Assembly: GCF_003931915.1 (NCBI RefSeq)
Contig: NZ_RSAA01000008.1
Location: 62,001 to 126,000, forward strand
Direction: 5' to 3'
Length of the DNA: 64,000 nucleotides
Origin: Saccharopolyspora rhizosphaerae
GTDB taxonomy: Bacteria; Actinomycetota; Actinomycetes; Mycobacteriales; Pseudonocardiaceae
The notes under the pieces were generated by a model. It did no database searches, was not told the origin of the DNA, and saw nothing but the letters and a program-made list of their open reading frames with translations. Position numbers and translations under genes: made by a program. The first letter of the stretch is position 1. Every line of letters starts with the position of its first letter. This document shows positions 1,892-62,070 of the stretch, piece after piece.

Positions 1892-1997
1892 GCCGCTGTT
1901 CCCGGTGTGGGACTCAGCTCGCACCGCAGGTCCGGTGCGGCTTCGCGGCGAGCGCGCCGTGGCGCGTGCACCAGGAGGGGCGCGCGGAACCACGGAG
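1892..1997 (+). repeat. dispersed intergenic repeat, copy 1
   Basis: The core GTGTGGGACTC at 1905-1915, followed by CAGCTCGCACCGCAGGTC, is shared with copies near 11.5, 14.7 and 34.9 kb. It occupies the gap between the small kshA-linked gene and the KstR-like gene. Origin unknown; no transposase is seen. Confidence 0.7.
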
Positions 1998-2037
1998 CGA
2001 GTCCCGAACGAGGAGCGAGTCCCGAACGAGGAGCGAG
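1994..2037 (+). repeat. 18-bp direct repeat containing the ribosome site of the KstR-like gene
   Basis: GGAGCGAGTCCCGAACGA occurs exactly at 1994-2011 and 2012-2029, then a partial third unit GGAGCGA at 2030. The third unit and the following GGAG form the purine-rich ribosome site of the gene starting at 2051. Confidence 0.85.
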
Positions 2038-2050
2038 GAGCTCTACGTCG

Positions 2051-2677
2051 ATGACTTCTGCGGCCAACCGGAACGGCCAGGGCGGCAACGCGCTCAACGC
2101 GATGGCCGAGGACGAGCTCACCGCCGGGGCTCAGCGCGACCGCCGCAAGCGGATCATCGACGCGACGATGGCCCTGGCCGACAAGGGCGGGTTCGACGCG
2201 GTGCAGATGCGCGCCGTGGCCGAGCGCGCCGACGTCGCCCTGGGCACGCTGTACCGCTACTTCCCCTCCAAGGTCCACCTGCTGGTGGCCAGCCTGGTGC
2301 GCGAGCTCGAACGCATCCAGGAGCGCCTGGACCGGGCCCCGGTCCGCGGTGAATCACCTTACGAGCGGCTGCTGTTCGTGCTCGGCCGGCTCACCCGCGC
2401 CTTCCAGCGCAACCCCAACCTCTCCGAGGCGGTGACCCGCGCGCTGATGTCGGCCGACGCCTCGGCGGCGACCGAGGTCGACGCGGCGAACCGGATGATG
2501 GAGGGCATGTTCATCGCGGTGATGAGCGAGGGTGAGCCCAGCGACGAGCAGGTGGCGGTCGCCCGCGTGATCGGCGACGTGTGGCTGTCGAACCTCGTGG
2601 CCTGGGTGACCCGCCGGGCCTCCGCCACCGACGTCTCCCGCCGCCTGGAACTCACGGTCAGACTCCTCCTCCGCTGA
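2051..2677 (+). CDS. KstR-like TetR repressor (paralogue A)
   Basis: The 208-residue protein closely resembles KstR, the TetR-family repressor of cholesterol catabolism. The N-terminal helix-turn-helix region has AVQMRAVAERADVALGTLYR followed by YFPSKVHLLV. The ligand-binding half keeps the KstR-specific run RVIGDVWLSNLVAW and TRRASATDVSRRLEL. The ATG at 2051 was chosen because GAGGAG lies just upstream and the protein then has the KstR length; an upstream in-frame ATG at 1907 lies in the dispersed repeat. No consensus KstR box is found in its own upstream region. A second gene of the same family is at 56.1 kb, and which one is the functional KstR orthologue is unresolved. Confidence 0.9.
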   Translation: MTSAANRNGQGGNALNAMAEDELTAGAQRDRRKRIIDATMALADKGGFDAVQMRAVAERADVALGTLYRYFPSKVHLLVASLVRELERIQERLDRAPVRGESPYERLLFVLGRLTRAFQRNPNLSEAVTRALMSADASAATEVDAANRMMEGMFIAVMSEGEPSDEQVAVARVIGDVWLSNLVAWVTRRASATDVSRRLELTVRLLLR

Positions 2678-5839: not shown

Positions 5840-7025
5840 TGGTGTCGTGTTCAGCCCGTACGACTACGCCGTGCACGCCGACCCGTACCCGGTCTACGCG
5901 CGGTTGCGCGACGAGGCACCGGTCTACCGCAACGACGAGCTCGACTTCTGGGCGCTGTCCCGGCACCAGGACGTCGCCGCGCTGTTCCGGGACAACACCC
6001 GGCTGTCCAACGCCAACGGCGTCTCGCTGGACCCCGCGGCCTGGGGCCCCTACGCGCACAAGACGATGTCGTTCCTCGCGATGGACGACCCCCGGCACAA
6101 CCGGCTGCGTTCGCTGGTCTCCCGCGGCTTCACGCCGCGCCGGGTCCGCGACCTGCAACCCCGCATCCTCGAACTCGCCCGCCACCACCTGCGTCCCGCG
6201 CTGGAGAGCGGCGAGTTCGACTTCGTGGCCGACTTCGCGGGCAAGTTCCCGATGGACGTCATCTCCGAGCTGATGGGCGTGCCGGAAGCCGACCGCGCGC
6301 GGTTGCGCGAGCTCGCAGACACCGTGATGCACCGCGAGGAAGGCGTCACCGACGTGCCGCAGGCGGCGATGGAGGCCTCGCTGCACCTGGTCGGCTACTA
6401 CGCCGACATGCTCGCCGAACGGCGCCGCGAGCGCACCGACGACCTCACCTCCGCGCTGCTGGAGGCCGAGGTCGACGGCGACCGGCTCAACGACGAGGAG
6501 ATCATCGCGTTCCTGTTCCTGATGGTCGTCGCGGGCAACGAGACGACCACGAAACTGCTGGCCAACGCCGTGTACTGGGCGCACCGCAACCCGCACGAGC
6601 AGGCCAAGCCGTTCGCCGACCCGGCCCGGGTCACCGACTGGATCGAGGAGACGCTGCGCTACGACACCTCCAGCCAGATGGTCGCCCGCACCGCCACCGA
6701 GGACCTCTTGCTGCACGGCACCACGGTCCCGGCCGGTTCCCGCGTGCTGCTGCTGATCGGGGCGGCCAACCGCGATCCGCGCGCCTTCGACGACGCCGAC
6801 CGCTACGACCTCGACCGCAGCACCGACACCCAGATCGTCAGCTTCGGCGGCGGCACGCACTTCTGCCTCGGCGCGCACTTGGCGCGGCTGGAAGCGCGCA
6901 TCGCGCTGACCGAGTTCGTCGAGCTGGTCAAGGCCTACGACGTCGACACCGACCGCGCGCAGCGGGTGCACTCCAGCAACGTGCGCGGTTTCGCGACCCT
7001 GCCCGTTCGCGTGGAAAGCAGGTAG
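5832..7025 (+). CDS. cyp123: cytochrome P450 of the CYP123 type
   Basis: The 397-residue P450 resembles M. tuberculosis CYP123 (Rv0766c), including the C-terminal phrase RVHSSNVRGFA. The I-helix carries AGNETTTK, the K-helix ExxR is EETLR, and the haem loop is FGGGTHFCLGAH with the cysteine ligand. The ATG at 5832 is preferred to GTG at 5820: neither has a ribosome site, but a promoter spaced for a leaderless message fits 5832. It heads a tightly packed operon with SDR, CYP51 and ferredoxin, the order known from Rv0766c-Rv0763c. The substrate of CYP123 is not established. Confidence 0.88.
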   Translation: MSSGVVFSPYDYAVHADPYPVYARLRDEAPVYRNDELDFWALSRHQDVAALFRDNTRLSNANGVSLDPAAWGPYAHKTMSFLAMDDPRHNRLRSLVSRGFTPRRVRDLQPRILELARHHLRPALESGEFDFVADFAGKFPMDVISELMGVPEADRARLRELADTVMHREEGVTDVPQAAMEASLHLVGYYADMLAERRRERTDDLTSALLEAEVDGDRLNDEEIIAFLFLMVVAGNETTTKLLANAVYWAHRNPHEQAKPFADPARVTDWIEETLRYDTSSQMVARTATEDLLLHGTTVPAGSRVLLLIGAANRDPRAFDDADRYDLDRSTDTQIVSFGGGTHFCLGAHLARLEARIALTEFVELVKAYDVDTDRAQRVHSSNVRGFATLPVRVESR

Positions 7026-7027
7026 CC

Positions 7028-7803
7028 ATGCCCAGGTTCGAGCCCCACCCGCAACGCAGGCCGACCGCGGTCGCCGGCGCGTCGGCCGGGATCGGCGCCG
7101 CCACCGCGCAGGCGCTCGCCGCCTCCGGGCACCCGGTGGCACTCGGTGCGCGCCGCGTCGACAAGTGCCGGGAGCTGGCCGAGAAGATCCGCGCCGACGG
7201 AGGTCACGCCCTCGCCGTGCCGCTGGACGTCACCGACGAGGGCTCCGTGGACGCCTTCGCCTCCACCGTCGCCGAGGAGTTCGGTGAGGTCGAGATCCTG
7301 GTCTACGGCGCGGGAGATCTCGACGCCGACCTGGTCCACGAGATGGACGGCGAGCGCTTCCACGCTCAGCTGGACGTGCACCTCGGCGGTGCGCACCGGC
7401 TGGTCTCGCGCATCGTGCCCGGCATGGTCGAACGACGGCGCGGCGACGTGGTGTTCATCGGCTCCGACGTGGTGCCCCAACCCCGACCGCGGATGGGCGC
7501 CTACGTGCCCGCCAAGGCCGGCTTGGAGGCGATGGCGCGCACGATGCGGATGGAGCTGGAGGGCACCGGGGTGCGCGCCAGCGTCGTGCGGCCCGGGCCG
7601 ACCGCGACCTCGATGGGCGTGAAGTGGGACGAGAAGACCACGGAAGCGGTGCTCAACGACTGGGTGAGGTGGGGACTGGCACGGCACCCGTACTTCCTGC
7701 GCGCCTCCGACATCGCCGACGCCGTGCACCACGTGGTGTCGGCACCGCGCGGCGTGCACCTGACCTTGATCGAGGTCGAGCCCGAAGCCCCGTTGGAGGA
7801 ACG

Positions 7804-7807
<4 letters not shown>
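7028..7807 (+). CDS. SDR-family oxidoreductase (Rv0765c-like)
   Basis: The 259-residue short-chain dehydrogenase has the cofactor loop AGASAGIGA near residue 18 and a Y-x3-K active pair in GAYVPAKAG. It starts two bases after the CYP123 stop and its stop overlaps the CYP51 start by four bases, so it is translated with both P450s. Position and sequence match Rv0765c, between CYP123 and CYP51 in mycobacteria. It may oxidise the P450 product, for example a sterol alcohol or aldehyde. That role is inference. Confidence 0.85.
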
Positions 7808-9353
<1,546 letters not shown>

Positions 9354-11741: not shown

Positions 11742-12590
11742 TCAACCCACACCGAGTTTGCCTGCGAGGCGGTGGAAGTACTCCTGGACCCACTCCTCCC
11801 CCTTCTCGGGGAACCCGAAGAGCGCTTCGGTGACGCCGAGGTCCTCCCAGCGGGCGAGGGTGTCCGGGTCCGGCTTGCCCGCGAGGGCGACGACCTGCGG
11901 ATCGCCCTCCCTGCCTGCCTCCTTCCAGATCCGCTTGAGCAGGGCGACCTTGTCGTCGATCTCGCCTTCGGTGGGAGTGGTGATCCAACCGTCGGCGGAG
12001 CGCGCGATCCAGGTGAAGGTCTTCTCCGTGCCGCCGGCCCCGACGAGGACCGGGGGCCGTGGCTGCTGGACCGGCTTCGGCCAGGCCCAGCTCGGGCCGA
12101 AGTCGACGTGGTCGCCGTGGTACTCGGCCTCTTCCTGCGACCACAACTGCTGCATGGCCTCCAGGTACTCCCGCAGCACCGTGCGCCGCTTGGCCTTGGG
12201 CACGCCGTGGTGGGTGAGCTCGTCGATGTTCCACCCGTACCCCGCCCCGAGGGTCACGCGGCCGCCCGAGAGGTGGTCGAGGGTGGCGATGGTCTTGGCC
12301 AGGGTGATCGGGTCGTGCTCGACCGGCAGCGCCACCGCCGTCGCGAGCCGGATCCGCGAGGTCACCGCGGCCACCATCGACAGCGCCACCCACGGGTCCA
12401 GGGTCCGCAGGTAGCGGTCGTCGGGGAGCTCCTCGGTCCCGGTGCCGGGGTGCGCAGCTTCGCGCTTGACCGGGATGTGGGTGTGCTCGGGCACCCAGAA
12501 GGAGTGAAAACCGGCCCCCTCGGCGGCCTTCGCGGCGACCGCGGGTGGGAGTCCGCGGTCGCTGGTGAACTGCACGATGCCGTACTTCAT
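11742..12590 (-). CDS. LLM-class F420-dependent oxidoreductase
   Basis: The 282-residue protein is a luciferase-like TIM barrel. Typical features are WVPEHTHIP near the N-terminus, LDHLSGGRVTLGAGYGWN around residue 105, and VLVGAGGTEKTF before the C-terminal part. Enzymes of this group generally use reduced F420 or FMN. Its ATG overlaps the stop of the carboxymuconolactone-decarboxylase-like gene (ATGA), so it ends a four-gene unit with that gene, a HIBADH and an SDR. The substrate is unknown; the operon suggests oxidation or ring-metabolite processing linked to the CYP123/CYP51 set. Confidence 0.87.
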   Translation of the reverse strand: MKYGIVQFTSDRGLPPAVAAKAAEGAGFHSFWVPEHTHIPVKREAAHPGTGTEELPDDRYLRTLDPWVALSMVAAVTSRIRLATAVALPVEHDPITLAKTIATLDHLSGGRVTLGAGYGWNIDELTHHGVPKAKRRTVLREYLEAMQQLWSQEEAEYHGDHVDFGPSWAWPKPVQQPRPPVLVGAGGTEKTFTWIARSADGWITTPTEGEIDDKVALLKRIWKEAGREGDPQVVALAGKPDPDTLARWEDLGVTEALFGFPEKGEEWVQEYFHRLAGKLGVG

Positions 12591-12946
12591 GATCGGTCCT
12601 CCTCGCCGAGGATCTTCTCGATGCGCATGGTGAACTTCGTGCCCAGCGGCCAGCCGACGTAGTGGGTCAGGAACAGCCCGATCTCGCGCAGCTGCTCGGC
12701 GTCGAGCTCCTCGTTGCCCAGAGCCGCCCGCACCTGGATGTCGGCCACGTCGTCGAGGCCTTGTGCCGCCAGAGCGCCCAGCAGCAACAACCGCCGGTCG
12801 CGCAGGCTCAAGCCGGGCCGGGACCAGATGTCGGCGAAGAGGTGGTCGACGGTGACGGCGAAGAAGTCCCCGGGCCCGTCGGAGACCTCCCAGCCGTAGA
12901 CCTCGCCCATCTTGGCCAGTCCGCGTTCGCGCCGCTCGTCCGTCAT
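12587..12946 (-). CDS. carboxymuconolactone decarboxylase-family protein (Rv0771-like)
   Basis: The 119-residue protein has the all-helical AhpD/CMD fold pattern, with LSLRDRRLLLLGALAAQG and RAALGNEELDAEQLREIGLFLTHYVGWP. There is no CxxC pair, so it is of the gamma-carboxymuconolactone decarboxylase type, not a peroxidase of the AhpD type. Both ends overlap its neighbours by four bases. Its position after HIBADH-like and SDR genes matches Rv0771 in M. tuberculosis. The reaction it catalyses there is not established. Confidence 0.85.
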   Translation of the reverse strand: MTDERRERGLAKMGEVYGWEVSDGPGDFFAVTVDHLFADIWSRPGLSLRDRRLLLLGALAAQGLDDVADIQVRAALGNEELDAEQLREIGLFLTHYVGWPLGTKFTMRIEKILGEEDRS

Positions 12947-49556: not shown

Positions 49557-51653
49557 TCAGCGAGGGAGTCCCAGGATCCGTTCGGCGATGACGTTGAGCA
49601 GGATCTGAGTCGTGCCCCCGGCGATCGACAGGGCGCGGGTGAGCAGCACCTCGTGCACCGGTTCGGCTTCCACCACCAGCGCCTCGATGCCGAGCACCTC
49701 GGTGCCGAGCTCGGCGACGCTCTGGCGGTGCCAGACGCCCAGCAGCTTCTCGACGCTGGACTCCGCGCCCGGTCCCCGCCCCTGCAGGCTGCGCAGCGTG
49801 GCGCGCAACCGCAGCAGCGATCCGGTCAGGCCCTCGACGACGGCGGCGCCGAGGCGTTCGCGCATCGACGGGTCGGCGTCGCCGGAGGCGGCCAGCAGCC
49901 GCTCGACCTCCTGCCCGATGCTGGACCCGCCGCCGAGCGCGACGCGCTCGTTGGCCAGTGTGGTGCGCGCGAGCTTCCAGCCCTGACCGGGTTCAGCGAC
50001 CAGGCACTCGTCGGGGACGAAGACCTCGTCGAGGAACACCTCGTTGAACCGCTCCACGCCGGTGATCTCGCGCAACGGGCGGACCGTGACGCCCTCGGAG
50101 CGCATGTCGACCAGGAAGTAGCTGATGCCGCGGTGCTTCGGCGCGTCCGGGTCGGTGCGGGCCAGGCAGATCCCCCAGTCGGCCTCCTGCGCCAGCGAAG
50201 TCCACACCTTCTGGCCGGTGAGCCTCCACCCGCCGTCGACGCGCTCGGCCTTGGTGCGCAAGCCGGCGAGGTCGGAACCGGCGCCGGGCTCGGAGAACAG
50301 CTGGCACCACGTGATCTCGCCGCGCAAGGTCGGCCAGACGAACCGCTCGCGCTGGGCGTCCGTGCCGTGCTCGACGATGGTCGGCACGGCCCAGTTGCCC
50401 ACCACCATGTCGGGTCGGCTCACACCCGCGCGGTCGAGCTCGTCGTCGATGAGCAGTTGCTCGTGGGGACTCGCGCCGCAGCCGTAAGGGCGGGGCCAGT
50501 GCGGGGCGAGGTAACCGGTCTCGGCGAGCCGGATCCGCTGCTGTTGAGGGGGAAGCGCGGCGATCTCCTCGACCGCGCTGCGGATCTCACCACGCCGCGC
50601 CTCGGGAAGTTCGGCCGACAGGCTCAGCCGCCGGCGCGCTCCGGAGGCCGACAGCTCCGCGACGCGGCGGCGCCAGCCGGCGGGCCCGCCGACGGTCTGC
50701 CGCAGCGCCAGCGCACGGCGGAGGTAGAGGTGGGCGTCGTGCTCCCAGGTGAAACCGATGCCGCCGAGCACCTGGATGCAGTCCTTGGCGACCTCGACCG
50801 CGGAGTCGAAGACGGCGGCCGCGGCCACGGCGGCGGCCAGCGGGTGCTCGTCGGGGGCGTCCTCGGCCGCGCGGGCGGCGTCCCACGCCAACGCGGTTGC
50901 CTTCTCCACCTCGCAGAGCATCCGGGCGCAGAGGTGCTTGACGGCTTGGAACGAGCCGATGACCTGGCCGAACTGCTCGCGAGTGCCCGCGTAGTCGACC
51001 GCCGTGCGCAGGCACCAGCCCGCGATCCCGGCGGCTTCGGCGGCGGCGAGCGTGACGGCGAGGTTCCGCACGTCGCGCTCCACCACGGCCGCCGCGGGCA
51101 CGGTGACCTCGTGCAGCACGACCTCGGCGACCGGCCGGGACAGGTCCAGCGACGGGCGCGGGGTGCGCTCGGCCTGGTCAGCGGGCAGCAGGAACCAGAC
51201 CTCGCGGTCACCGGCGCGCGCCGGCAGCAGCAGGTGGGTCACCCCCACCGCCCCCGGGACGGCCGCGATGCGGCCGGACACCACCAGCCCGTCGGCAGTG
51301 TCGGTGGCCACCAGCTCACCGGGGTCCAAGGAAACAGCGGCGGTGGCCCGACCTTCGGCGAAGTCGGCATCGCCGAGCAGCGCCACGGCCACGGCGGTGG
51401 ACCACACCGGTCCGGGCACCAACGCGTCGGCGGCCTGCTCCACGCCCGCGGCGAGGTCGGCCAGCGTGCCGATCCGCTCGGTGATCAGGGAGAACAGTCC
51501 GATCTCGGTCAGGCTGACCCAGGACTCCTGCTCGTGCCAGATCGGGGCCTCGGCGCCCTCCAGCTTGCGCACCGCACCGGTGCCCAGCCCTTCGGCCCAA
51601 GACCGGATGGACTCCTGCAGGGCCCGCTGCTCCTCGGTGATCGCGATCGGCAC
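49557..51653 (-). CDS. fadE34: double-length acyl-CoA dehydrogenase FadE34 (ChsE3)
   Basis: The 698-residue protein holds two fused acyl-CoA dehydrogenase halves: residues 1-330 (LQVLGGIGFTWEHDAHLYLRR at its end) and 345-698 (WCQLFSEPGAGSDLAGLRTKAE, KVWTSLAQEADWG). The fold, length and gene context match FadE34 (Rv3573c, 711 residues), which oxidises five-carbon side-chain thioesters. GTG 51653 has GAGGAGG upstream. A perfect KstR box lies 35 bp before it. Confidence 0.93.
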   Translation of the reverse strand: MPIAITEEQRALQESIRSWAEGLGTGAVRKLEGAEAPIWHEQESWVSLTEIGLFSLITERIGTLADLAAGVEQAADALVPGPVWSTAVAVALLGDADFAEGRATAAVSLDPGELVATDTADGLVVSGRIAAVPGAVGVTHLLLPARAGDREVWFLLPADQAERTPRPSLDLSRPVAEVVLHEVTVPAAAVVERDVRNLAVTLAAAEAAGIAGWCLRTAVDYAGTREQFGQVIGSFQAVKHLCARMLCEVEKATALAWDAARAAEDAPDEHPLAAAVAAAAVFDSAVEVAKDCIQVLGGIGFTWEHDAHLYLRRALALRQTVGGPAGWRRRVAELSASGARRRLSLSAELPEARRGEIRSAVEEIAALPPQQQRIRLAETGYLAPHWPRPYGCGASPHEQLLIDDELDRAGVSRPDMVVGNWAVPTIVEHGTDAQRERFVWPTLRGEITWCQLFSEPGAGSDLAGLRTKAERVDGGWRLTGQKVWTSLAQEADWGICLARTDPDAPKHRGISYFLVDMRSEGVTVRPLREITGVERFNEVFLDEVFVPDECLVAEPGQGWKLARTTLANERVALGGGSSIGQEVERLLAASGDADPSMRERLGAAVVEGLTGSLLRLRATLRSLQGRGPGAESSVEKLLGVWHRQSVAELGTEVLGIEALVVEAEPVHEVLLTRALSIAGGTTQILLNVIAERILGLPR

Positions 51654-51687: not shown

Positions 51688-51701
51688 TAGAACATGTTCT
51701 A
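51688..51701. promoter_or_regulatory. KstR box between fadE34 and the methyltransferase
   Basis: TAGAACATGTTCTA is a perfect palindrome, 35 bp before fadE34 and 69 bp before the divergent methyltransferase. Confidence 0.88.
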
Positions 51702-51754: not shown

Positions 51755-52453
<699 letters not shown>

Positions 52454-52897: not shown

Positions 52898-53962
52898 TCA
52901 GCGGGTGCGCTCGTACTCGCAGCAGGAGGCGTTCTCCACCGGGAGGCCGGTGGGGAGGTCGTCACCCCGGAAGACGCCGTTGCCCCGACTGGTCCGGGTC
53001 ACGGCGTCGGCGGCGAGGATGACCGCCGCGGCGGTCCAGGACGACTGCTCCTCCGGCCAGCGCTTCCCGTCCGCGAAGACGTAGCCCGTCCAGTAGGAGC
53101 CGTCGGGATCGCGCAGGTGCTGCATCGCGGCGAGCTGCTGCACCGCGCGGTCGTGCTCGCCCAGGGCGTCGAGGGACAGCACCAGCTCGCAGGTCTCGGC
53201 CCCGGTGACCCACGGGTGGTCGTCGACGCAGCGGATGCCGAGGCCCTCGACGACGAAGTCGTCCCAGCGCTCGTCGATGCGCCGCCGACCGTCCTCGCCT
53301 CGGACCGCACCGCCCAGGATCGGGTAGTACCAGTCCATCGAGTACCGCGTCTTCGGCGTGAACGCCTCCGGGTGCTGGCGCAGCGCGTGCCCGAGGTGGC
53401 CGACGGCCACCTCCCAGCTCGGCTGCGGCACCCCGACGTGCTCGGCCAGCGCCAGCGCGCACCGCAGGCTCTGGTGGACGCTGGAGCTGCCCGACAGCAG
53501 AGCCTCCCCGGTGGGGCCGGCTTCGCCGATGCCCCAGTCGATCTCGCCCCGCGGGTGCTGCGCGGTGAGCACGAAGTCGACGGCGTCGCGCACCACCGGC
53601 CACATCCGCTCGGCGAACGAGTCGTCACCGGTGATCAGCACGTGGTGCCACACGCCCACGGCCGGGTAGGCGCAGTAGTTGGTGTCGGCACCGGCGTCCT
53701 CCACGACGCCGTCGCGCACCTGCAGCGGCCAGGAACCGTCGGCGCGCTGGGTGCGGCGCAGCCACTCGTAGGCGCGTTCGGCTTCGGTGAGCTGGCCGAC
53801 CACGGACAACGCCATCGCGCACTCGACGTGGTCCCACGGGTCGGTGTGACCGCCCGGGAACCACGGGATCTCCCCGGAAGGGAGCTGCACGGAGGCGATG
53901 GCCTTGCCGGTCTGGACGAGCGCTTCAGCGGAGACGACACCCGGCAGCTCAGGCGCGGGCAC
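52898..53962 (-). CDS. prenyltransferase/terpene-cyclase-like alpha-barrel protein
   Basis: The 354-residue protein shows the helical-repeat pattern of the (alpha/alpha)6 squalene-cyclase or prenyltransferase toroid: YEWLRRTQRADGSWPLQ near residue 66 resembles a QW repeat, with later TNYCAYPAVGVWHHVLI and WTGYVFADGKRWPEEQSSWT. No DxDD protonation motif is obvious, so classical cyclase activity is doubtful; glycoside hydrolase-like barrels share this fold. Its start overlaps the methyltransferase stop by 14 bp. It is the last gene of a three-gene unit. Confidence 0.78.
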   Translation of the reverse strand: MPAPELPGVVSAEALVQTGKAIASVQLPSGEIPWFPGGHTDPWDHVECAMALSVVGQLTEAERAYEWLRRTQRADGSWPLQVRDGVVEDAGADTNYCAYPAVGVWHHVLITGDDSFAERMWPVVRDAVDFVLTAQHPRGEIDWGIGEAGPTGEALLSGSSSVHQSLRCALALAEHVGVPQPSWEVAVGHLGHALRQHPEAFTPKTRYSMDWYYPILGGAVRGEDGRRRIDERWDDFVVEGLGIRCVDDHPWVTGAETCELVLSLDALGEHDRAVQQLAAMQHLRDPDGSYWTGYVFADGKRWPEEQSSWTAAAVILAADAVTRTSRGNGVFRGDDLPTGLPVENASCCEYERTR

Positions 53963-54680
53963 TGGCCGCTCCCGGCTTGCCCAGGTAGATCGCGATGCTC
54001 TTGCCCGCGACGGGGTTGAGCAGCTTCTCGGCGGTCCGCGAGATCCACGGCGCCTTCATCATGTCCCACACCAGGAACGCGTGGTAGGCCTTGGCCAACG
54101 GGTGGTCGTCGTTGTCGGTTCCCACCGCGCACTTGATCCACCAGTACGGCGAGTGCAGCGCGTGCGCGTAGTCGCGGAAGGCGTAGCGCAGCCCGGCGTC
54201 GGTGAGCTTGCCGATGAGCTCCTGGGCGGAGTAGATCCGCACGTGCCCGCCCTCGACCTGGTGGTACTCGTCCGACAGCGCCCAGCAGATCCGCTCCGGC
54301 CAGGCGCGCGGGACGGTGACCACGACGCGCCCGCCGGGCTTGACCACCCGGACGAGCTCGCGCATCGCCTTCTCGTCCTCGGGGATGTGCTCCAGGATCT
54401 CCGAGGCGATGACGACGTCGAACTCGCCGTCGGCGAACGGCAGGGCCAGCGCGTCACCGGAGACGGTCTGGGCCTTGGCGCCCTCGGGCACCTCGCCCTC
54501 GTCCTTCATGGCGGCGAACATCGCAGCCACGTTCTCCAGCTCCTCGACGTCCTGGTCGAAGGCGGTGACGTCGGTGCCGCGCCGGTACAGCTCGAAAGCG
54601 TGCCGACCGCCGCCGCAGCCGAGGTCCAGCACCCGCTGTCCCGGCCCCACACCGAGCCTGTCGAAGTCCACCGTCAGCAA
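53949..54680 (-). CDS. class I SAM methyltransferase (UbiE/Methyltransf_11 type)
   Basis: The 243-residue protein has the SAM motif VLDLGCGGGRHAFEL near residue 18, VTAFDQD, FDVVIASEILEHIP and RVVKPGGRVVVTVP. It lies between a glycosyltransferase and the cyclase-fold gene, overlapping both (7 bp and 14 bp), which implies obligate co-expression. A lipid, sugar or polyprenyl acceptor is likely by association. Start at ATG 54680. Confidence 0.87.
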   Translation of the reverse strand: MLTVDFDRLGVGPGQRVLDLGCGGGRHAFELYRRGTDVTAFDQDVEELENVAAMFAAMKDEGEVPEGAKAQTVSGDALALPFADGEFDVVIASEILEHIPEDEKAMRELVRVVKPGGRVVVTVPRAWPERICWALSDEYHQVEGGHVRIYSAQELIGKLTDAGLRYAFRDYAHALHSPYWWIKCAVGTDNDDHPLAKAYHAFLVWDMMKAPWISRTAEKLLNPVAGKSIAIYLGKPGAASARA

Positions 54681-55930
54681 CGCGTTGCTCCCTTCCCAGC
54701 GCGCGAGCTGCGCGCGATCGCTTCGGCGTAGCAGTCGACGGTCGCCGCTGCCACGGATTTCCAGCTGTAGCGCGCGAGCACCCGCTCGCGCCCGTTGGCG
54801 CCGAGCCGCGCGCGGCGCTCCGGCGAGTCCAGCAGCCGCACCAGCGCGTCGGCCAGCGCTTCGGCATCACCTGGCGGCACCAGGTCGGCGCACTCCCCGT
54901 CCGGCCCGGCGACCTCGGGGATGGCTCCGGCACGGCTGGCGACCAGCGGGGTGCCGCAAGCCATCGCCTCCACCGTCGGGAGCGAGAACCCTTCGTAGAG
55001 CGAGGGAACGCAGGCGACCTCGGCGGACCCGAACAGCTCGGCCAGCTCCTCGTCGCTGATGCCCTTGACGGTGCGCACCACGTCGCCGATGGCCAGTTCC
55101 TCGATGCGCTGCTCGGTCGGTCCACCGGGGGTCAGCTTGCTGACGAGCACCAGCTCGACCTCGCGCTCGGTGCGCAGCTTCGCGACCGCCTCCAGCAGCG
55201 TCCCGACACCCTTCATCGGGGTGTCGGCGCTGGCCATGGCCACGATCCGGCCGGGAACCCGCGGCTTCGCGGGCGGGGTGAACACCTCGGCGTCCACGCC
55301 CAGCGGCACCACGCGCAGCTGCTCGGGGCTGACGCCGAAGTCGTCACGGATGTCGTCGGCGGAGTTCTGCGAGACCGTCAGCAGCTGCGGGATCTGCCGG
55401 GCGACCCTGGCCTGCATGCGGGTGAAGCCGTACCAGCGGCGCACGGTCAGCTTGCGCCACCCCGTGGCGTCGGCGAGGTCCACGCGGCGGTCGTGGGTGA
55501 TCGGGTGGTGGACGGTCGCGACGAGTGGGACCCCGGCGCGCTGCAACGAGAGCAGGCCGGTGCCCAGGCACTGGTTGTCGTGGACGACGTCGAACTCGTG
55601 CGCCCGGGCCTTGAGCAGCCGCGCCGCGCGCATGCTGAAGGTCCTCGGCTCGGGGAAGCCCGCGGTCCACATGGTTCCGACCTCCAGCAGGTCGATGTGG
55701 TCGCGCAGCTCGCGCCAGTGCGGGGTGCGGAACGGGTCGTCGTCGTTGTAGAGGTCGAGGCTGTCGATCTTCGTGAGGTCGACCCCGGCGTCCAGGTCCG
55801 GGTAGGGCTGCCCGGAGAAGACCTCGACGTGGTGTCCCAGCTCGGCGAGGCCGCGGCTGAGGTAGCGCACGTAGACGCCCTGTCCACCGCAATGCGGTTT
55901 GCTCCGATAGGAAAGCAGCGCGATCCGCAC
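54674..55930 (-). CDS. GT4-family glycosyltransferase
   Basis: The 418-residue GT-B enzyme has the N-terminal SKPHCGGQGVYVRYLSRGLA acceptor loop, the central TVSQNSADDIRDDFGV and RVVPLGVDAEVF, and the nucleotide-sugar EGFSLPTVEAMACGTPLVAS with the E-x7-E pair of GT4. It leads the glycosyltransferase-methyltransferase-cyclase-fold operon. A KstR-like box lies 41 bp upstream, shared with the divergent KstR-like gene. It is likely retaining and cytoplasmic or membrane-peripheral. Confidence 0.87.
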   Translation of the reverse strand: MRIALLSYRSKPHCGGQGVYVRYLSRGLAELGHHVEVFSGQPYPDLDAGVDLTKIDSLDLYNDDDPFRTPHWRELRDHIDLLEVGTMWTAGFPEPRTFSMRAARLLKARAHEFDVVHDNQCLGTGLLSLQRAGVPLVATVHHPITHDRRVDLADATGWRKLTVRRWYGFTRMQARVARQIPQLLTVSQNSADDIRDDFGVSPEQLRVVPLGVDAEVFTPPAKPRVPGRIVAMASADTPMKGVGTLLEAVAKLRTEREVELVLVSKLTPGGPTEQRIEELAIGDVVRTVKGISDEELAELFGSAEVACVPSLYEGFSLPTVEAMACGTPLVASRAGAIPEVAGPDGECADLVPPGDAEALADALVRLLDSPERRARLGANGRERVLARYSWKSVAAATVDCYAEAIARSSRAGKGATRC

Positions 55931-55971
55931 GATTCACCTCACACTGCCCGGGGGCCGCGGGCTGGGTAGAC

Positions 55972-55985
55972 TGGAACATGTTTCG
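55972..55985. promoter_or_regulatory. KstR-like box between the glycosyltransferase operon and the KstR-like gene
   Basis: TGGAACATGTTTCG lacks only the final A. It is 41 bp from the glycosyltransferase start and 117 bp from the KstR-like start. Confidence 0.7.
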
Positions 55986-56101
55986 GTCGAGGTAACCCGC
56001 TTACCTTAACCCGTGAGTAGCCCCGGACGAGGAGTCGCGTGGCGACGAACACGCTTCGCCGCCACCTGATGTCCGTCGAGTGTTCAAGGAGAGCCCGCCC
56101 C

Positions 56102-56707
56102 ATGGATAGCCCGCAGAACGTGCTGGAGGCACTCCGGGGCAACGCCACCGGCACCACGGCGCAGGCGGAACGCCGCAAGCGCATCATCGACGCCACCCTC
56201 GCGCTGGCGAGCAAGGGCGGCTACGACGCCGTCCAGATGCGCGCGGTCGCGGAGAAGGCCGACGTCGCGCTGGGAACGTTGTACCGGTACTTCCCGTCGA
56301 AGATCCACCTGCTGGTGGTCGGCTTGGCGCGGGAGTTCGCCCGCGAGCAGGAGAAGCTGGACCGGTCGAAGATCCCGGGCGACACCGCCTACGAGCGGGT
56401 GCTGCACGTGCTCAACCGCACGACCCGCCAGCTGCAGCGCAACCCCGAGCTGACCGAGGCGATGACGAGGGCGTTCATGTTCGCCGACACCTCGGTGGCC
56501 AACGAGGTCGACACCGTGGCGCTGCTGATGGAGCACCTGTTCACCCGGGCCATGACGCCCGACGAACCCACCGAGGAGCAGAAGGCGATCGCCCGGGTGA
56601 TCGGCGACGTCTGGCTGTCCAACCTGGTCGCGTGGGTGACCCGGCGGGCCTCGGCGAGCGACGTGTCCAACCGGCTCGAGCTGACCGTCCGGCTACTGCT
56701 GGCGTGA
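56102..56707 (+). CDS. kstR: KstR-like TetR repressor (paralogue B, likely kstR)
   Basis: The 201-residue protein resembles KstR (Rv3574) throughout: AVQMRAVAEKADVALGTLYR, YFPSKIHLLVVGLAREFARE, LTEAMTRAFMFADTSVANEV and RVIGDVWLSNLVAW. The recognition-helix segment is identical to that of paralogue A at 2.05 kb. Its location five genes from fadE34 recalls Rv3573c-Rv3574, so this copy is the better orthologue candidate. ATG 56102 has AAGGAGA 9 bp upstream. A KstR-like box in its promoter suggests autoregulation. The last 15 bp overlap the convergent MBL gene. Confidence 0.92.
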   Translation: MDSPQNVLEALRGNATGTTAQAERRKRIIDATLALASKGGYDAVQMRAVAEKADVALGTLYRYFPSKIHLLVVGLAREFAREQEKLDRSKIPGDTAYERVLHVLNRTTRQLQRNPELTEAMTRAFMFADTSVANEVDTVALLMEHLFTRAMTPDEPTEEQKAIARVIGDVWLSNLVAWVTRRASASDVSNRLELTVRLLLA

Positions 56708-60460: not shown

Positions 60461-61330
60461 GTGCAGGACAAGCAGCTGACCGTCGACGAGGTGGTCTCCC
60501 ACCTGCGCGACGGCATGACGATCGGCATCGGTGGCTGGGGCTCCCGGCGCAAACCGATGGCCCTGGTGCGCGCGATCCTTCGCTCGGACGTGAAGGACCT
60601 GACGCTGGTGTCCTACGGCGGGCCCGACGTCGGACTGCTGTGCGCCGCGGGCAAGCTCCGCAAGCTCGTGCACGGGTTCGTCTCGCTCGACTCGGTCCCG
60701 CTCGACCCGCACTTCCGCGCGGCCCGCCAGCGGGGTGAGCTCGAGGTCGCCGAGTACGACGAGGGGATGGTGCTCGCCGGGTTGCGCGCCGCAGCGGCGC
60801 GCCTGCCGTTCCTGCCCACCCGCGCGGGGCTCGGTTCCGACGTGATGGCGCTCAACCCCGGTCTGCGCACCGTCCGATCCCCCTACGCCGACGGTGAAGA
60901 GCTGGTCGCGATGCCAGCGCTGCACCTCGACGTCGCGCTGGTGCACATGAACCGCGCGGACCGCTACGGCAACGGCCAGTACCTCGGGCCCGACCCGTTC
61001 TTCGACGACCTGATGTGCGCGGCCGCTGAGCGCAGCTTCCTCAGCTGCGAGCGGCTCGTGCCCACTGAAGAGCTCACCGAGACCGCTCCCCCGCAGTCGC
61101 TGCTGATCAACCGGCTCTACCCGCAGGGTGTGGTGGAAACGCCGAACGGCGCCCACTTCACCAGCTGCACGCCGGACTACGGCCGCGACGAGGCGTTCCA
61201 GCGCCACTACGTCGCCAGCGCGAAACCCGGCCAGTGGGACGCGTTCCGCGCCGAGTTCCTCGACGGCGACGAGGCGGACTACCAGGCGGCGGTCGAGAAG
61301 TTCCACGCGCGCGCGGAGGTGCCGGCATGA
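60461..61330 (+). CDS. ipdA: CoA-transferase-like ring hydrolase, alpha subunit IpdA
   Basis: The 289-residue protein resembles Rv3551. It has GMTIGIGGWGSRRKPMALVRA, SYGGPDVGLLC and RTVRSPYADGEELVAMPAL. IpdA and IpdB form a heterodimer that hydrolytically opens ring C of COCHEA-CoA. The GTG start directly follows the echA20 stop, with GAAGGAGG inside the echA20 end. Confidence 0.94.
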   Translation: MQDKQLTVDEVVSHLRDGMTIGIGGWGSRRKPMALVRAILRSDVKDLTLVSYGGPDVGLLCAAGKLRKLVHGFVSLDSVPLDPHFRAARQRGELEVAEYDEGMVLAGLRAAAARLPFLPTRAGLGSDVMALNPGLRTVRSPYADGEELVAMPALHLDVALVHMNRADRYGNGQYLGPDPFFDDLMCAAAERSFLSCERLVPTEELTETAPPQSLLINRLYPQGVVETPNGAHFTSCTPDYGRDEAFQRHYVASAKPGQWDAFRAEFLDGDEADYQAAVEKFHARAEVPA

Positions 61331-62070
61331 CGATCACCAGGGCCGAGGTCTGCGCGGTGGCCTGCGCGGACAGCTTCGCCGACGCCGGGACGGTCATCGC
61401 CTCCCCGTTCGGCACGATCCCCTCGATCGGAGCCAGGCTGGCGAGGCTGACCAGCGCGCCGGAGCTGCTGCTCACCGACGGCGAAGCGATGCTCATGGCC
61501 GAAACCCCGCCGCTGGGCGAGGAATCCACCGCCACGGTCGAGGGATGGCTGCCCTACGGCAGGGTCCTCGACCTGCTCGCCGGTGGCAAGCGCCGGGTGA
61601 TGATGGGCGCGTCGCAAGTGGACCGGTTCGGCAACCAGAACATCTCCCGCATCGGCGACTGGGCGCAGCCCAAGGTGCAGCTGATCGGCGTGCGCGGGGC
61701 GCCGGGCAACTCGGTCAACCACACCACGAACTACTGGATCCCCAACCACAGCACCAAGATCTTCGTGGAAACCGTCGACCTGGTGGCCGGTGTTGGCCAC
61801 GACCGGGCGCGCCAGTCCGGAGCGAAGTACCACGACGTGCAGGTGGTGGTGACCGACCTGGCCGTGCTGGACTTCCAGGGGCCCGAGGGCGCGATGCGGC
61901 TGCGCTCGGTGCACCCGGGGGTGAGCGTGGCGGAGGTCCAGGAGAAGACCGGCTTCGAGCTCGTCGTCGAGGAGGTCGCCGAAACCCGGCTGCCCACCGA
62001 CGAGGAACTGGCCCTGGTCCGCGACCGGATCGACCCGAAGTCGTTGCGGGACAAGGAGGTCCCGGCGTGA
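61327..62070 (+). CDS. ipdB: CoA-transferase-like ring hydrolase, beta subunit IpdB
   Basis: The 247-residue subunit resembles Rv3552: VIASPFGTIPSIGARLARLT, DGEAMLMAETPPLG, VDRFGNQNISRIGDW and RLRSVHPGVSVAEVQEKTGF. The ATG overlaps the ipdA stop by four bases, and its own stop overlaps the ipdC start, so subunit amounts should be matched. Confidence 0.94.
   Translation: MTITRAEVCAVACADSFADAGTVIASPFGTIPSIGARLARLTSAPELLLTDGEAMLMAETPPLGEESTATVEGWLPYGRVLDLLAGGKRRVMMGASQVDRFGNQNISRIGDWAQPKVQLIGVRGAPGNSVNHTTNYWIPNHSTKIFVETVDLVAGVGHDRARQSGAKYHDVQVVVTDLAVLDFQGPEGAMRLRSVHPGVSVAEVQEKTGFELVVEEVAETRLPTDEELALVRDRIDPKSLRDKEVPA

Follow-up and report, generated by a model that had tools for sequence, protein, structure and literature searches.

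The window analyzed here is a 64,000-nucleotide stretch of the Saccharopolyspora rhizosphaerae genome (contig NZ_RSAA01000008.1, positions 62,001 to 126,000). Four of its genes, manT, meT3, mmpH, and meT1, lie between kstR, which encodes a TetR-type repressor, and a gene for a fadE34-type acyl-CoA dehydrogenase, with a KstR-type box before each outward end (Table 1). Our results suggest that the four genes form a complete set for methylmannose polysaccharide (MMP), and that this set quite likely belongs to the KstR regulon. An initial annotation, made from the letters alone, had described three minus-strand reading frames that overlap (by 14 bp for mmpH and meT3, by 7 bp for meT3 and manT), a divergent KstR-like gene across a near-consensus box, and a second methyltransferase that faces fadE34 across a perfect box. 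The coordinates bear all of this out.

Table 1. Window coordinates of the predicted MMP genes, the two genes that flank them, and the KstR-type boxes
Feature	Position	Strand	Basis
manT, alpha-(1->4)-mannosyltransferase of MMP, operon gene 1	54674..55930	-	PDB 7qsg match
meT3, putative 3-O-methyltransferase of MMP, middle operon gene	53949..54680	-	PF08241 and position
mmpH, MMP endomannosidase, (alpha/alpha)6 barrel, operon gene 3	52898..53962	-	PDB 7qsj match
meT1, 1-O-methyltransferase of MMP, convergent with manT operon	51770..52453	+	PDB 6g7d match
kstR, TetR-type repressor, divergent from manT	56102..56707	+	NF033703, PDB 5ua2
KstR-type box, manT/kstR intergenic, 55 bp before manT start	55972..55985	.	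one mismatch, score 17.6
Perfect KstR box, meT1/fadE34-type gene intergenic	51688..51701	.	score 26.7
fadE34-type two-domain acyl-CoA dehydrogenase, other flank of MMP set	49557..51653	-	acyl-CoA dehydrogenase matches

The GT4 glycosyltransferase encoded by manT matches PDB entry 7qsg (E 7.2e-176), and the toroid protein encoded by mmpH has a sole PDB match at E 0.001, MmpH (7qsj, E 7.5e-156). Residues D47, W49, D50, M215, Y219, E262, E265, and W315 are identical to 7qsj in the alignment, and two others are substituted (F102 to Y, T163 to S). Among the identical positions, D47, D50, E262, and W315 are catalytic residues. The plus-strand methyltransferase matches 6g7d (E 3.4e-94), an entry with a generic title that we take to be MeT1. 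With this assignment, orthologues of ManT, MmpH, and MeT1 stand together in one cluster of the window. The middle methyltransferase is S-adenosylmethionine dependent (PF08241) and has generic PDB matches only; we call it meT3 by position, because it is found with mmpH in all 80 named loci. Within the stretches fetched around these 80 mmpH genes, ManT is present in 77 and MeT1 in 71.

The set can no longer be called uncharacterized, as it was at first. Its products match 7qsj, 7qsg, and 6g7d, and the mycobacterial enzymes are published (PMC9883506; this and all other papers are cited by accession). There, 7QSG is named as ManT, active-site roles are given to the MmpH residues listed above, enzyme assays and solved structures are available for ManT and MmpH, and the mycobacterial MMP cluster consists of meT1, mmpH, pmeT3, and manT.

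The toroid had also led to a different idea, namely that a glycosyltransferase, a methyltransferase, and a protein of squalene-cyclase/prenyltransferase type act together to make or modify a glycolipid, an isoprenoid-linked sugar, or a sterol. The all-helical toroid and the gene order fit this idea superficially, but we find it extremely improbable. MmpH is the only PDB match of the toroid, and the catalytic residues of an endomannosidase are present. At E 0.001, Pfam and NCBIfam return no cyclase or prenyltransferase family, and what NCBIfam does return is of glucosidase type. By sequence the toroid is a glycoside hydrolase, an endomannosidase with intact catalytic residues. The part of the original proposal that fits the evidence is a methylated sugar made on sterols. 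The sequence makes MMP, a soluble polysaccharide of the cytoplasm, the most likely product, rather than a glycolipid, an isoprenoid-linked sugar, or a sterol that has been tailored.

The mycobacterial MMP cluster has all four genes and, in the mycobacterial loci we fetched, the same order (manT-meT3-mmpH, with meT1 convergent); the MmpH active site is conserved in the window protein. Unlike the mycobacterial cluster, the window set lies among sterol genes and has KstR-type boxes. Acetylated MMP, a related product, is known from Streptomyces griseus, whose ManT homologue is 53% identical to the M. hassiacum enzyme (PMC9883506). The enzymes are already known, and the new part is the predicted regulatory link between MMP and KstR. 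Among 390 genomes of the family 95 carry mmpH, including all 22 Saccharopolyspora, and the closest named relatives of the window gene are those of S. flava, S. endophytica, and S. ipomoeae (92% identity). Two loci are unusual. A contig of 5855 bases labelled as a Bifidobacterium breve metagenome-assembled genome (L072, CAMDFY010000151.1) carries manT-meT3-mmpH at 63-68% identity, and is possibly misbinned actinomycete DNA. In Saccharomonospora halophila (L065), a Mce-type gene (7830-9221) lies directly before meT3, in the expected place of manT, and there is no ManT match in the stretch examined.

The kstR locus and its boxes

The kstR reading frame spans 56039-56707, with the ATG at 56102 as its likely start. 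Its product falls into the NCBIfam equivalog NF033703 (326.5 bits, cut-off 280), and in the PDB it matches the KstR entry 5ua2 best (E 2.2e-74). The initial annotation had spoken of a KstR paralogue at this place. Instead, the gene beside manT is kstR itself, at the conserved kstR/fadE34 locus; the additional paralogue lies at window 1907-2677. This second KstR-family gene also exceeds the curated cut-off (about 303 bits). Among the 62 genomes searched, just six Saccharopolyspora, all of the S. flava type, have such a second copy. The fadE34-type gene has no PDB match at E 1e-60; we gave it this name because it adjoins kstR, as in Rv3573c/Rv3574 (PMC1995591). The locus shares with the mycobacterial KstR regulon of that paper a kstR beside a fadE34-type gene, the palindrome TnnAACnnGTTnnA, and a curated KstR family member. 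It differs in its MMP genes, which as members would extend the regulon described there.

Matches to the KstR motif with at most one mismatch number 24 in the window against 3.14 expected, and none of 100 shuffles reaches 24. Two reading frames for CoA-transferase subunits lie at window 60461-62070. The first matches PDB 6co6 (E 4.4e-114) and is IpdA-like, and therefore genes for the degradation of the C/D rings are close to the MMP set. An alignment of the promoter region across the genus gave no promoter elements that could be firmly read.

In all 22 Saccharopolyspora, window included, kstR adjoins manT. The other 21 loci have a box in the same place as the window, at -55 or -56 from manT, and the fadE34-type gene is still adjacent in 7 of the 22. 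To score boxes we used a matrix built from eight perfect boxes of the window, with the two tested boxes excluded. Relatives have kstR/fadE34 regions without MMP genes, and in seven of nine such regions two boxes of at least 14 lie between the genes (one box in the other two). These paired boxes score 22.1-27.1 and 14.5-16.3, and the distance between them is 76-79 bp in six regions and 57 bp in the seventh. In M. tuberculosis, a palindrome of the kstR/fadE34 region is bound by KstR (PMC1995591). Since the regions of the relatives hold a strong and a weak box, the two boxes of the window look like that pair split, and the MMP module was probably inserted between the two boxes that the kstR/fadE34 promoter region had ancestrally. 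Within the window both boxes are common to kstR and fadE34; that they would also belong to the MMP genes we infer from other genera.

We rejected autoregulation of kstR as the sole cause of the box before manT. It explains the origin of the boxes in the genus, not the boxes where kstR lies elsewhere.

MMP loci in other genera

Adjacency to kstR is found in only 9 of the 80 named MMP loci (eight Saccharopolyspora and one Halopolyspora). Among our other groups it occurs in all six g36 genomes, in the single g10 genome, and in one of two g18 genomes (genus labels were inferred: Actinopolyspora for g7, Prauserella for g28, Saccharomonospora for g34, Haloechinothrix for g20, Halopolyspora for g18, and Halosaccharopolyspora for g21). 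The suspected tie between the gene triplet and kstR therefore fails as a matter of adjacency. However, boxes precede manT in several genera with kstR elsewhere, and because of them the regulatory idea survives.

Shuffled upstream regions reach a score of 16 in 0.09% of 2280 trials. For real sequence, cut into 4946 tiles of 280 bp from 71 named loci, the figure is 0.7%, which includes the true boxes. Among 61 fetched loci of the family (window excluded), manT or meT1 is preceded by a box scoring 16 or more in 43 of 49 genomes with KstR versus 1 of 12 without it. At a score of at least 14 the counts are 45 of 49 versus 3 of 12, where two of the three KstR-negative cases are other sites about 310 bp upstream. 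Fisher's test, which ignores relatedness, gives p = 3e-7 for a score of 16 and p = 7e-6 for 14. In the family genomes where KstR is present and not adjacent, a box of at least 14 precedes either gene in 16/20 cases and manT in 13/18.

Six loci from other genera, with kstR not adjacent, have the box between manT and a neighbour on the same strand, and in none of them is a divergent gene confirmed. This neighbour is hsaB in L163, a Mce gene group in L063, a P450 gene in L162, an LLM oxidoreductase gene in L203, and tRNA-Asp in L095 and L204. The case of L063 is less sure, because an antisense reading frame (6753-7880) is also open there. In L081 a divergent reading frame is present beside the box, so that the box is not clearly that of manT. 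Distant family copies of the set (about 50% identity, 15 loci) have no meT1 match and no box before manT.

The genes around MMP loci point in the same direction. As queries we took the 43 reading frames of the window outside the MMP set, some of which count as sterol genes by position only, and counted as homologues those with 50% identity or more across 60% or more of the query. Left out were Saccharopolyspora loci, L055, L058, L059, L061, L063, L065, L072, L074, L078, L087, and L100, and L205-L222. At least one homologue from the sterol cluster of the window was found in 49 of 118 MMP loci versus 0 of 20 hand-picked control regions of the family, and removal of the kstR and fadE34 queries left the neighbour counts unchanged. 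Neighbours are present in g36 (6/6), g10 (1/1), G204 (1/1), G203 (1/1), g16 (1/1), g19 (2/2), g20 (3/3), g28 (6/6), g12 (1/1), g35 (2/2), g21 (1/1), Rhodococcus together with the f8 genera (4/4), Nocardia (16/16), and Williamsia (4/5). The sole neighbour is the gene next to kstR in G203 and g21, and the LLM oxidoreductase in Williamsia. L163 is the strongest case: HsaA, HsaD, HsaC, and HsaB, all above curated cut-offs, are encoded on the same strand and run into manT. No flanking homologue was found in g34 (0/3), g31 (0/2), the Actinopolyspora-type g7 (0/10), or the distant copies (0/15). With zero neighbours in these groups and in Mycobacterium, a universal link between MMP and sterol genes is rejected.

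Nocardia loci such as L097, L110, and L112 have an LLM F420-type oxidoreductase gene just before manT, and homologues of window 11742-12590 and 12587-12946 nearby. In these three mapped loci, strong boxes lie several kilobases off.

Genomes without KstR or without sterol markers

KstR scores above its curated cut-off in 50 of the 62 family genomes searched; its origin has been placed at the ancestor of Mycobacterium and Rhodococcus (PMC3388012). The ten Actinopolyspora-type g7 genomes have no KstR at E 1e-40. Their sites near -55 score 18.0 in one genome, 12.2 in three, 9.1 in three, and 2.8 in one, and two have no clear site. Within one genus, a genome without KstR (G203) scores 7.9 and one with KstR (G204) scores 19.5. 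A further genome, G211, has neither KstR nor a box. This graded decay of the manT site in genomes without KstR fits relaxed selection on what may be a KstR site.

Six of the 22 Saccharopolyspora lack HsaC (E 1e-60). Five of these six (G351, G359, G360, G364, and G365; 97-100% complete) are also without IpdA (E 1e-40) and have no FadE34-type match at E 1e-100 among the best 18 candidates per genome. From these three markers it appears that the sterol pathway has been lost in the five genomes. All five retain kstR above the curated cut-off, with boxes of 17.6-23.4 before manT and 13.7-22.1 on the side of meT1. The strict core RRAACATGTTYY occurs eight times each in G351, G359, and G364, and three times each in G360 and G365. 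Of the 30 sites, 15 were scored (three in each genome), which covers all of those in G360 and G365. Two manT/kstR sites score 17.6 and three others 15.2; the other ten loci have no box of at least 14. Because the strict-core pattern misses other box forms, these counts do not show a regulon reduced to MMP.

Competing explanations and a possible role

One could argue that the MMP genes are mere passengers, which landed by chance between kstR and fadE34 and have an unregulated promoter, while the boxes serve their two old owners. Since uninterrupted kstR/fadE34 regions of relatives already hold two boxes in 7/9 cases, the boxes in the genus need no link to MMP. Nevertheless, we regard chance as an improbable explanation. 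It does not account for the boxes before manT in 13 of 18 loci with KstR present and not adjacent, for sterol-gene neighbours that recur in several different arrangements, or for the decay of the manT site where KstR has been lost.

A place of MMP in the KstR regulon, which we favor, has several observations against it. Inside Saccharopolyspora the two boxes may serve kstR and fadE34 alone. Mycobacterium MMP loci have a neighbour from the sterol cluster of the window in 0/38 cases, and in the scored Mycobacterium and Nocardia loci neither manT nor meT1 is preceded by a box that reaches 16. The two g31 genomes have KstR and no box. For the six loci with the box behind a same-strand neighbour, the KstR search covered only the genomes of L163 and L162, and L063 matches the KstR-positive G259. 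Finally, kstR and mce4 of S. hirsuta were uninduced after 24 h on cholesterol (PMC9782250).

Neither PMC1995591 nor PMC4881515 mentions M. smegmatis MSMEG_6482-6484 in its main text, and the word glycosyltransferase is absent from the main text of the S. hirsuta genome paper (PMC8708139). We found no open-access paper that links KstR to methylmannose, and among open-access papers on KstR, glycosyltransferase, and methyltransferase none is on MMP by title and abstract.

If the MMP genes do belong to the KstR regulon, then the four-gene set is predicted to be switched on by sterols. When sterol is absent, KstR would occupy the two boxes and keep expression of manT-meT3-mmpH and meT1 at a low level, as the position of the boxes suggests. 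When sterol is present, a steroid-acyl-CoA would release KstR, as expected from mycobacterial KstR, and the four genes would rise together with the degradation enzymes. MmpH would then cut old MMP into primers, ManT extend them, MeT1 cap them, and the putative MeT3 methylate them, as published for the mycobacterial homologues (PMC9883506). The extra MMP might bind bulky acyl-CoA, perhaps CoA thioesters of the steroid side chain, and keep it soluble and protected. While cells grow on sterol, it could in this way act as a buffer for bulky acyl-CoA of steroids or fatty acids. In vitro, polymethylated polysaccharides do bind acyl-CoA, but fatty acids were not significantly changed in mutants with altered methylglucose polysaccharides (PMC2674218).

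Taken further, MMP would be a dedicated intracellular carrier of sterol catabolism in nonmycobacterial actinomycetes, co-induced through KstR and sequestering steroid-acyl-CoA. In Saccharopolyspora without ring degradation, KstR would have been repurposed as a regulator of MMP that senses another acyl-CoA. We consider this extended proposal doubtful. The main rival of a carrier role is that MMP shares the regulation of sterol genes because of membrane or stress demands, such as fluidity, cold, or the load of fatty acid synthesis, and does not carry steroid intermediates. This is a real possibility, if short of probable: an M. smegmatis mutant without MmpH and MMP grows more slowly at 15 C and not at optimal or higher temperature (PMC9883506), and KstR has been proposed to be a broader lipid regulator (PMC3388012). 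Yet in some loci the MMP genes come immediately after hsaADCB or next to genes of Mce4 type, which speaks for a direct metabolic link, although such a placement would also be compatible with a membrane or stress role.

The function of polymethylated polysaccharides in vivo is still poorly defined. The enzymes of MMP are known from work on mycobacteria. The mycobacterial loci in our set have neither sterol neighbours nor a strong box, and this may explain why the link has remained unseen. If MMP does belong to the KstR regulon of Saccharopolyspora, Prauserella, and Rhodococcus, its role would be directly testable on cholesterol. A carrier or sequestration step would be added to sterol catabolism. 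Such membership could also explain why KstR persists in genomes without markers of sterol degradation.

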